Below, in pieces: positions 19,486 to 23,499 of a stretch of DNA of 64,000 nucleotides; the stretch's first letter is position 1; each line of letters begins with the position of its first letter. The notes beneath the pieces are model-generated. The model did no database searches and was not told where the DNA came from. It worked only from the letters and a program-made list of their open reading frames with translations. This DNA comes from Branchiostoma floridae. Taxonomy: Eukaryota; Chordata; Leptocardii; Amphioxiformes; Branchiostomatidae. The stretch lies in assembly GCF_000003815.2 (NCBI RefSeq), contig NC_049990.1:17979199-18043198 (forward strand), read 5' to 3'. A program made the position numbers and the translations under genes.

Positions 19486-22400
19486 ATGATCCCAGAAAAG
19501 CTCCTCGGTCAGGACAGGGACCACAGCAGCCGCGGCCTTCTCATCCAGCTCTTCGCGGCAGTCGTTTTCGTGAATTTCCTGGTTGCCGCCTGCCTGGTGC
19601 TGTGGCAGGGGGCTGAGCTGAGGGAACGCCGGGCCGTGCTGGACAGGGTGCTGGGAGAAGTCACGCTCCTGAGAGAGCGAGACACCATACAGGACCGGGT
19701 GCTGGACCAACAAAGCGCAGAGATTGGGCACCTGAAAGTACAGGTTCGTCAACTGATGGGAGAAAGAGAGGGTGACAAGAGGAACTCCAAGACGCGAGAA
19801 GACTCCACCCAAGACGATGTCCTTCGAGGACAAGATTTCAGAGCAGAAACCGAAGTAAGAACATTTGTGTTTCTTTAGTTTGCAAACAAAGGGTCACCCT
19901 TAAGACTTACAAGTCAATCTTACTGCAAGAAAATCCTTCCCTTTCTTCTTACAGCCATAAGACAATGCCATTCATCCAAATATAGGTTTTTCGCTGGTGT
20001 GCTGTCGGACACCGTCAAGTGTATCACAGTGCTACAATCCTTGTCGTAGTTACATTTCTTGTGTTAATTTCGACCAGTTAAATAACAGATAAACTAAATT
20101 TCTATCTCCAAATCATCTCAAGTGAACTTTTTTTGACGAATGCGGTTTTATTTCTTCGAAATATGAAATTGTCCGAATGAAATAAAAAGTGACGAGCAAA
20201 CCACCAGTTCTATAATGTGTTTATACCAGAACCAGTGTCATGAGTGGCGCTAATGTGCACGACAAACGTACTTTTTTTTGTAAAGTTTTTTCTTCTAAAA
20301 ATATTGCTTTGAAACCACCGTCCGTCGTCTTGATATCCCTAATACCCTATAAAAACGACGGATATAAGTTACCCACGGATATAGATGAACTAGTGTTATG
20401 TTAATTTCGACAAATTCTATCCCCCACGTCTATTTTGCAGTCAGAGCCTACGGACAGTGATATTGGTAGAGTTGATCTGGACGACATGACGGACTTTGAT
20501 GCTCCCTGGCGATTGGAAGATGAACTGCACGACAGGTCGAAGAGGGAGGCTGGTGAGCGTTAATCAATCGATGTTTTAGACGGTTTAACGTCCAGTGCAG
20601 AGAAAATGGCATTTTATTCGATGGAGTTCAAACTAAGCCAAAATTATAAAACGGGACCCAAAAGTACACCAAGCGGCTCTGATCTAATAGTAAGACAGTT
20701 GAATAGGAATTCCCTTGAATTGTTGAAGTCTTATTGACATTATGGCGTAATCCATACATTGAACTCTCCTTTTTTTCTGTATTTCCAGGTTGCACAGGGT
20801 GTAAGGGAGATAAGGGGCCGAGAGGACCCAGAGGACGACGTGGACCTAGGGTAAGCTGCAAGTGATATCTAGTCAGAACAAAAATGAATCTTGAAAAATG
20901 AGTTTTGCACAAAATACTGTGATACCAGTACGAACATAAGTAACCAAGACCATTTCTTCACCCACCCAGGGTGTAGGCGGAAAACCAGGCAAAAATGGAG
21001 CTTCTGGCCCGCCTGGTCTGAAGGGTGACACTGGAGAACCTGGACCTAAAGGGGACACTGGAGAACCAGGTCCTAAAGGCGACACCGGAGAAACAGGACC
21101 TAAAGGCGACACTGGAGAGACAGGACCTAAAGGTGACACTGGAGAACCAGGACCTAAAGGCAACACTGGACAACCAGGACCTAAAGGCGACACTGGAGAA
21201 ACAGGACCTACAGGTGACACTGGACAACCAGGACCTAAAGGCGACACTGGACAACCAGGCCCTCAAGGCAACACTGGACAACCAGGACCTAACGGTGACA
21301 CTGGAGAAACAGGACCTAAAGGTGACACTGGAGAAACAGGACCTAAAGGTGACACTGGACAGCCAGGACCTAAAGGTGACAATGGAGAACCAGGCCCTAA
21401 AGGCGAGACTGGACAACCAGGCCCTCAAGGCGAGGCTGGACAACCAGGCCCTCAAGGCGAGACTGGACAACGAGGACCTAAAGGCGAGACTGGACAACCA
21501 GGCCCTCAAGGCGAGACTGGACAACCAGGACCGAAAGGCGAGACTGGACAGCCAGGACCTAAAGGTGACAATGGAGAACCAGGCCCTAAAGGCGAGACTG
21601 GACAGCCAGGACCTAAAGGTGACACTGGAGAACCAGGACCTAAAGGCGACAATGGAGAACCAGGCCCTCAAGGCGAGGCTGGACAACCAGGCCCTCAAGG
21701 CGAGACCGGACAACGAGGACCTAAAGGCGAGACTGGACAACCAGGCCCTCAAGGCGAGACTGGACAACGAGGACCTAAAGGCGAGACTGGACAATCAGGG
21801 CCTAAAGGCAACATTGGAGAAACAGGACCTAAAGGCGAGACTGGAGAACCTGGACCTAAAGGGGACACTGGAGAACCAGGACCTAAAGGCGACACTGGAG
21901 AACCAGGCCCTAAGGGCGACACTGGAGATCCAGGACCTAAGGGCGACACTGGAGAACCAGGACCTAAAGGCGAGACTGGACAACCAGGCCCTCAAGGCGA
22001 GACTGGACAACGAGGACCTAAAGGCGAGACTGGACAATCAGGGCCTAAAGGCAACATTGGAGAAACAGGACCTAAAGGCGAGACTGGAGAACCTGGACCT
22101 AAAGGGGACACTGGAGAACCAGGACCTAAAGGCGACACTGGAGAACCAGGCCCTAAGGGCGACACTGGAGAACCAGGCCCTCAAGGCGAGACTGGAGAAC
22201 CAGGACCTAAAGGCGACACTGGAGAACCAGGACCTAAAGGCGACACTGGAGAACCAGGACCTAAGGGCGACACTGGAGAACCAGGACCTAAGGGCGACAC
22301 TGGGGAGCCAGGACCTAAAGGCGACACTGGGTGGCCAGGACCTAAAGGTGACTCCGGAGTACCAGGCCCCCAGGGCCCGAAGGTAAGTCAATGTTGTTAT

Positions 22401-23499
22401 ACGTATATATTAGGTCCTAAGAAATTTAAATGGTTAAGATCTAAGGTGATTTGTGGTGGATGTACATTTTGGCCCCCTTGCGGCTTGTTGCGAGTTCTGG
22501 ATATACTCTGGTCGTGATTTTTTAATGTGATAATTTATTTGTATAATCAATGCGAAATTTTTCACTCGGTGCAGTTGATATCTTAAACTCTAGTTTCCCT
22601 TCCAACAGGGGACAAAAGGTGACAGAGGCTACCCTGGTTCTCCCGGGCTAAAGGGACAGAGGGGTTACCGTGGCTACACCGGCTACCCTGGCTCCCAGGG
22701 GCAGAAGGGTGATCCAGGCCCTGTCGGCCCCAAGGGTGACCGTGGCTTGCCTGGCCCAGTTGGACAATACGTCCGCCAATGTAAGTACACTGCAACTGTT
22801 GTTGTAATTTTCGACATTTAAAGAAAAAAATGGTTAAAAATAAAATGGTACTGGCCTGGTACTTTGATAATACTCTTGTGAGCCTCATCATGACTTTCAA
22901 AACTGCAAGAGACATTGGATAAAGCGCCAGTCGCCATGTCATAACAAGATATTAGAGATTTCCCATTGATAGGCGTCGGGATCGAACCATTTTATCATCT
23001 TTCTATATCTAAAATACTTTCACTAACAAGATGTTGTCTATACAAGTTATCCAGAGCACTAAAACATAATTTCTCTTTGCTAAAATCCTGTGCTTTAGAA
23101 ATAACTGGGTGGCAGAATGTGGTGCTACGTGTTAAGGCGAAGGCCTTTCTGAAATTTTCGAAAGTGAAAATAAAGTTACTAACGTTACCTTTGTCATTGA
23201 ATATTCTTTCAGGCGACCTTGGACGCGTAGACACTGGTCCAGTTGCTCCTGTACCGACCCACATTCTCTTCACAGGAACCGGAGAGCGTGAAATCTGCAA
23301 AATCTTTCACTTCCGCAATGCCTTCCCTGGCGTACCGGCTGTCCATATCGGTCTCGCCCACCTTGACCACCATGCTGGTCAGGAACGGATCCACACGTAT
23401 GTGAAACGTGCTACAACAACCATGGCTGAAGTGTGCATGCGCACTTGGCATGATACGAAATGGGTTAGGGTACAGGTCGACATCCTCGCCTGTCTGTAA
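19486..23499 (+). CDS. Type II transmembrane collagen with furin-like site and C-terminal H-type-lectin-like domain
   Basis: Six exons: 19486-19854, 20441-20552, 20789-20850, 20970-22382, 22609-22780, 23213-23499 (stop TAA), 804 residues, all borders and phases consistent. Order: a short basic cytoplasmic N-terminus; a single hydrophobic segment at about residues 17-44 ([20 protein letters not shown]); a charged heptad-like coiled coil (about 45-95); an acidic stalk ([18 protein letters not shown]); a furin-type site RSKR (about residue 158); a GC-T-GC start; then about 182 uninterrupted Gly-X-Y triplets. The last 95 residues contain [19 protein letters not shown] and [19 protein letters not shown], which fit the H-type lectin fold pattern (Helix agglutinin family), with four cysteines. 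The layout parallels membrane collagens (XIII, XXIII, XXV) and ectodysplasin, but with a sugar-binding-type head. Inferred role: cell-surface or shed glycan-recognition protein, possibly in immunity or matrix. It has no assigned name. Confidence 0.85.
20280..20404. repeat. Partial copy of the element at 30057-30418
   Basis: Contains GAAACCACCG...CGTCTTGATATCCCTAATACCCT and ends GTTACCCACGGATATAGATGAACTAGTGTTA, matching the right half of the 30.4 kb element. Lies in the first intron of the collagen-lectin gene, ending shortly before the acceptor at 20440. Confidence 0.55.
20970..22382 (+). repeat. 27-bp collagen repeat array with 243-bp higher-order unit
   Basis: Single 1413-bp exon made of about 50 copies of a 27-bp unit (GGAGAACCAGGACCTAAAGG + CGACACT) encoding [10 protein letters not shown] block of nine units recurs almost exactly 243 bases apart (for example ACAATCAGGG at 21791 and 22034), showing recent unequal exchange. 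Length variation between alleles is likely. Confidence 0.9.
22440..22550 (+). repeat. Interspersed repeat family A fragment
   Basis: Contains GGCCCCCTTGCGGCTTGTT and ATACTCTGGTCGTGATTTTT, matching the ATGCTATGGTCACGATTTTT part of the 32.1 kb copy. Intronic in the collagen-lectin gene. Confidence 0.5.

Follow-up and report, generated by a model that had tools for sequence, protein, structure and literature searches.

A predicted lancelet membrane collagen with a C-terminal H-type lectin domain, on a framework that seems to carry other heads

Introduction

Do the collagen exons and the lectin-like exon that follow one another at this lancelet locus belong to a single gene, and what kind of protein would such a gene make? 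In vertebrates, collagenous lectins start lectin-pathway complement. The H-type lectins whose structures have been solved are, to our knowledge, soluble proteins with neither collagen nor a membrane anchor. An initial annotation of the locus had joined the two parts into one gene, and in this work we have examined its gene model, its paralogues, the terminal domain and the more distant genes which resemble it in their N-terminal half.

Results

The gene in the window (that is, the whole stretch of 64,000 nucleotides that was analysed), here called A, consists of six exons and five introns with GT/AG borders, and reads in a single frame through 804 residues to a stop codon (Table 1). The exons are predicted from splice sites, frame and paralogues. 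This in-frame model agrees with the initial annotation of a complete gene with an anchor, an RSKR site, about 182 triplets and an H-lectin-like end; the six splice junctions which it had counted have to be corrected, since there are five introns.

Table 1. Features of gene A, its two paralogues and three more distant relatives
Feature	Position	Strand	Basis or remarks
Window	C12:17979199-18043198		of a 513-Mb genome
TATAAA core-promoter-like motif	19333..19338	+	sequence and A/B upstream alignment; putative promoter role
Exon 1: start codon and a short N-terminal tail, then the hydrophobic anchor and a stretch prone to form a coiled coil	19486..19854	+	
Anchor, hydrophobic, about residues 17-40	19534..19605	+	hydropathy
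Exon 2: acidic linker, R-X-K-R site at end	20441..20552	+	
RSKR furin-type site, residues 155-158	20534..20545	+	B likewise RSKR; C has RTKR
Exon 3: two cysteines (GCTGC), opening collagen triplets	20789..20850	+	
Exon 4: long collagen exon, mainly a 27-bp (9-aa) tandem array	20970..22382	+	no counterpart in the B and C models
Exon 5: final collagen triplets and VRQC linker	22609..22780	+	
Exon 6: H-type lectin head, then stop codon	23213..23499	+	
Pfam PF09458 H_lectin match	23308..23490	+	residues 32-92 of the 94-residue query
Paralogue B	C12:18075772-18073055	-	anchor, RSKR, 21 collagen triplets, Cys linker, lectin exon
Paralogue C	C12:17845809-17837830	-	anchor, RTKR, 50 collagen triplets in five runs, Cys linker, lectin exon
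C9 relative	C9:23219600-23227518		RSKR, collagen pieces, Cys-rich GGSHYTHSGGGANFVCLP head
C4 relative	within C4:7.83-8.14 Mb		RSKR, collagen, then F5/8 type C domain over two exons (E 1.4e-12 and 4.1e-9)
C19 relative (sequence with 100 N)			RQKR, collagen, weakly laminin-G-like head (E 0.0046, under cut-off)

The single hydrophobic segment described near the N-terminus is indeed the sole stretch of protein A above 1.4 on the Kyte-Doolittle scale, the 19-residue windows concerned lying within residues 14-45 and reaching at most 2.63. One N-terminal anchor followed by collagen is the arrangement found in type II transmembrane collagens, and suggests the same orientation for A; a count by eye of the charges flanking the anchor does not speak for a type II orientation. 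Could the segment rather be a signal peptide, the protein being plainly secreted and R-X-K-R serving as a propeptide site? Its solitary position close to the N-terminus would suit this, and once furin had cut, the end product would be similar. However, the hydrophobic run, at about 24-29 residues, is long and comes after some 16 mainly polar residues, longer charged tails precede the segment in paralogue C and in the C9 and C19 relatives, and the layout is that of type II transmembrane collagens as described in the available part of PMC4678570. We consider a signal peptide distinctly improbable and continue with a membrane anchor.

The collagen of A comprises 182 Gly-X-Y triplets (residues 161-706), or 174 (185-706) when Gly is disallowed at X and Y, and leaves a tail of 98 residues. 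Most of it is encoded by the 27-bp array (21027-22366, 49.6 copies, 87% matches), whose length may differ between animals or assemblies. Two further R-X-[KR]-R motifs are present in the protein: RGRR at 175-178 within the collagen, and RERR at 46-49 directly after the anchor, which is common to A and B and could be a second cleavage site. The coiled coil that had been claimed is weakly supported in A itself, where 40 of 500 shuffles were equally good in a crude heptad test; the same test gave 1 of 500 in B, which is strong, and 35 of 500 in C, again weak.

The TATA-like motif and a nearby CGAAGACTTGT stretch are also found upstream of paralogue B, the motifs of the two genes lying a few columns apart in the alignment of their upstream regions. 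Three 384-bp tandem copies (17893-19053, 94% matches) lie directly upstream of gene A, and stretches related to them also occur upstream of B. Elsewhere in the window, Pfam gave no match for the scanned pieces of the proline-rich exons at 8488-17730 (+), which include a WH2-like stretch and presumably resemble a WIP/WIPF gene. An open reading frame at 7016-7651 (+) gave a weak Myosin_head match (E 3.5e-5, under cut-off), and two closely similar 211-aa frames in opposite orientation, 44236-44871 (-) and 54163-54798 (+), look sulfotransferase-like by eye and had no Pfam match at E <= 0.01.

Is the lectin exon really part of the collagen gene, or does it belong to a neighbour and enter the model as an artefact? 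The intron ahead of it measures 432 bases, and the exons of B and C were predicted in this analysis just as those of A were, so that an artefact would have some room. Nevertheless, the end of the collagen, the Cys linker, a phase-1 intron and the lectin exon follow in the same order at two paralogous loci. Since these loci repeat the join with the same intron phase, the exon at 23213 goes, as had been proposed, with the collagen exons and not with another gene, and since B and C also share the order of parts, the exon phases and R-X-K-R, we regard an artefact as very improbable indeed. The exon phases are 0,0,1,0,1 in B and C, and A has the same series with one extra phase-0 collagen exon. A short GAPGP..GDTGD reading in an intron of B is possibly a vestige of exon 4. 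Exon 1 of A has a homologue in B (66% identity, E 4.3e-23) and the aligned exon 1 of C is also homologous; directly upstream of the latter there is a partial copy of 63 residues (68%, one stop). All three proteins have a pair of cysteines at the start of the collagen, one before the head and three within it. The lectin exons are 81% identical between A and B and 45% between A and C, and their Nei-Gojobori (NG86) dN/dS values, 0.129/0.271 for A-B and 0.575/1.12 for A-C, are near 0.5, which by this measure indicates moderate constraint.

The proposal that the C-terminal 95 or so residues are an H-type lectin domain held up against Pfam: the last exon of A matched H_lectin (PF09458) at E 1.7e-8 and 34.9 bits, the curated cut-off being 24. 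At E <= 1 no other family was listed for the head, and there was no C-type lectin, fibrinogen-like or olfactomedin match. None of ten controls, the reversed head and nine shuffles, matched H_lectin at E <= 1, and three of them matched other families (E 0.16-0.23). Full-length B passed the cut-off for Collagen as well as that for H_lectin (27 bits); full-length C passed that for Collagen, its H_lectin match (E 0.013, 16 bits) being under the cut-off of 24. In phmmer against the PDB (E <= 10) the head of A alone listed six sequences, all discoidins or snail agglutinins, the best at a non-significant 0.038. A profile of the three heads likewise listed six, again all discoidins or snail agglutinins, with discoidin-2 (1.7e-6) as the sole strong match, discoidin-1 at 0.0084 and the agglutinins at 0.045-0.1. 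Helix agglutinin was reached at E 1.6e-12 by a profile of nine rows, to which non-collagenous relatives contributed six. In the search for alignment rows for the head, amphioxus H-lectin queries gave 16 pattern matches in viral contigs and 38 in genome contigs, none of them confirmed by tblastn, and the best value against PHROGs was 0.24. The single-sequence AlphaFold model of the head, made without an alignment, was poor (mean pLDDT 44).

Discoidins and snail agglutinins bind sugars. The Arg and Trp aligned with Arg63 and Trp83 of Helix agglutinin, which we take to be binding-site residues, are conserved across A, B and C. The TWH motif of the agglutinin is aligned with TWH in A, with TWA in B and with TWW in C, its His being found in A alone; as TWH is replaced in B and C, sugar binding is possibly not common to all three.

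How often does the genome place an H-lectin exon behind collagen? There are at least 35 H_lectin places (34 Pfam matches and locus C), and among the 29 whose upstream DNA was examined, collagen runs of at least five triplets on the same strand precede only three, namely A, B and C. The upstream DNA examined in the 26 collagen-free cases was more than 4 kb in 16, about 3.2 kb in one and about 1.5 kb in nine, and the absence of collagen is firmest for the 16, for which more than 4 kb was covered. In a tree of the 26 domains that remained of the 29 once three of fewer than 75 residues had been left out, the collagenous domains fall on one side of a branch with support 98/98, C being a long branch and the bootstrap not settled. 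The interval C3:3.25-4.78 Mb holds many H-lectin exons, without upstream collagen where examined, and appears as an H-lectin expansion.

The N-terminal half of these genes, a chassis of anchor, R-X-K-R and collagen, reaches further. At E <= 0.1 there were 28 matching places for the N-terminal exon of C and 34 for the N-terminal exon of the C9 relative, many of the E-values being weak and the matches overlapping the coiled coil. With the C9 query, copies on C9, C8, C12 and C19 were strong, the C4 cluster gave 1.1e-6 and weaker values, and gene A gave 0.003. Homology of the C4, C9 and C19 loci to this chassis is argued from weak E-values, partly over the coiled coil, together with gene structure. 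All three have R-X-K-R in the exon preceding the collagen and share with A, B and C a phase-1 start of the collagen exon; the first intron has phase 0 in C4 and C9 (the exon-2 donors of these two were read by eye), and the first donor of C19 is ambiguous, with a phase-0 candidate present. The heptad test was strong throughout, with 2, 0 and 2 of 500 shuffles equally good in C9, C4 and C19, respectively. The GGSHYTHSGGGANFVCLP head of the C9 relative, which had no Pfam match, is one that we take to be reminiscent of sponge short-chain collagen. The C4 interval holds 27 chassis-like exons, and 8 of the 12 F5/8 matches listed there lie at most 4 kb downstream of such an exon on the same strand; about four would be expected, as about 35% of the interval is so placed, so the excess is modest, and one of the eight is that of the C4 relative. 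From a loose count, with three loci sampled, it is likely that one chassis carries several heads.

Discussion

What, then, would the protein be? Our preferred answer, which we hold to be probable, is that A is a type II membrane collagen, released by a furin-type cut at RSKR, in which a trimeric rod bears three H-type lectin heads on a chassis that seemingly carries other heads as well. It may also be that the same protein has a head which does not bind sugar, having lost this ability or never had it, and which, within a matrix or adhesion collagen, binds protein or caps the trimer in the manner of the olfactomedin head of gliomedin. The residue aligned with the His of the agglutinin TWH differs in B and C, heads differ widely among the sampled chassis genes, and colmedins, as described in the available part of PMC7848082, show such a chassis serving cell adhesion. 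On the other side, every PDB sequence that the head profile listed belongs to the discoidins or the snail agglutinins, which bind sugars, and the Arg and Trp aligned with the presumed binding site are conserved across the three paralogous proteins. We find a head without sugar binding rather unlikely, though the most serious competitor of the lectin-headed, releasable collagen that we favour.

In type II collagens a coiled coil joins the chains, folding proceeds from N to C, and a furin-like cut falls just before the first collagen domain, as far as the available parts of PMC7848082 and PMC4678570 describe it. This scheme of assembly and cleavage is in keeping with the conserved R-X-K-R and with the cysteines found at either end of the rod. 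If gene A is expressed and its product has the membrane topology that we infer, three chains would zip together starting at their N-terminal side, meeting at the coiled coil and folding N to C. A furin-like protease would cut at RSKR, directly before the collagen, and a trimeric rod with its three lectin heads would be freed, or perhaps partly retained. The heads would then attach with avidity to sugars or to some other ligand on a surface, presumably in defence or adhesion; by analogy, A could thus act as a glycan receptor that is shed. Since discoidin II forms trimers and Helix agglutinin hexamers (PMC5712786, in part), a collagen trimer suits an H-lectin head. The F5/8 (discoidin) and H-lectin domains, both of which the chassis seems to carry as heads, are the two domains joined in discoidin II (PMC5712786, in part).

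On a wider scale, we tentatively suggest, as somewhat less probable than not, that the chassis has multiplied to dozens of genes with exon-shuffled heads that are unrelated to one another (H-type lectin, F5/8 type C, laminin-G-like and an unassigned Cys-rich one), forming a releasable, multivalent repertoire for surface recognition which works like the vertebrate collectins and ficolins and evolved apart from them. If this is true, a lancelet lineage has fitted a membrane collagen that furin can release with other heads that bind sugars or lipids, and chordates have arrived at the design of a rod with heads on more than one occasion. The phase-1 border common to the chassis genes offers a testable route for head swaps.

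Several known systems share parts of this design. The head of A is like the H-type lectins, that is, Helix pomatia and Helix aspersa agglutinins and the C-terminal domain of discoidins I and II, by PF09458, by the PDB profile matches and by the R/W pattern. Among animals, gastropod HREPs join an H-lectin domain to Ig domains and rotifers have single-domain H-lectins (PMC8878817, available part). The MACIT collagens (XIII, XXIII, XXV and COL-99) resemble A in their type II-like anchor and in having R-X-X-R ahead of the first collagen domain (PMC4678570 and PMC7848082, in part). Their C-terminal region is conserved among themselves, whereas the C-terminus of A is an H-lectin domain; the available text of PMC4678570 reports MACITs as not identified in Branchiostoma and mentions no lectin for them (the word "lectin" occurs 0 times). 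Colmedins such as gliomedin and UNC-122 are likewise type II membrane proteins with collagen and a C-terminal globular head, and differ by their olfactomedin head (PMC7848082, in part).

Outside animals, a fibre protein of a polinton-like virus, known from one example in Cyanophora paradoxa, is presumed to be trimeric and has a C-terminal H_lectin head as in A, but contains two phage-tail repeats instead of collagen; an anchor is unmentioned in the available part of PMC12220804, which also mentions collagen, laminin-G_3 and discoidin modules in these viruses. Within the literature searched, the nearest fibre with an H-lectin is viral. A phage fusion of collagen and lectin was considered as a precedent and rejected: in the tail genes of a Propionibacterium acnes phage the collagen-like and H-type-lectin-like proteins are almost adjacent and have separate genes (PMC3094311 and PMC9846536, in part), the lectin E-values being weak (0.001-0.04, PMC3094311). 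No animal protein combining collagen with an H-lectin was found in the part of the open-licence literature searched.

The collagenous receptors themselves are familiar. Membrane and soluble collectins, ficolins, ectodysplasin and MARCO all carry trimeric recognition heads on a collagen rod, their heads being of the C-type lectin, fibrinogen-like, TNF or SRCR kind, whereas that of A is an H-type lectin. Judged by sequence, what looks new here is this already known receptor design with an H-type lectin head, on a chassis whose heads seem to be swapped.
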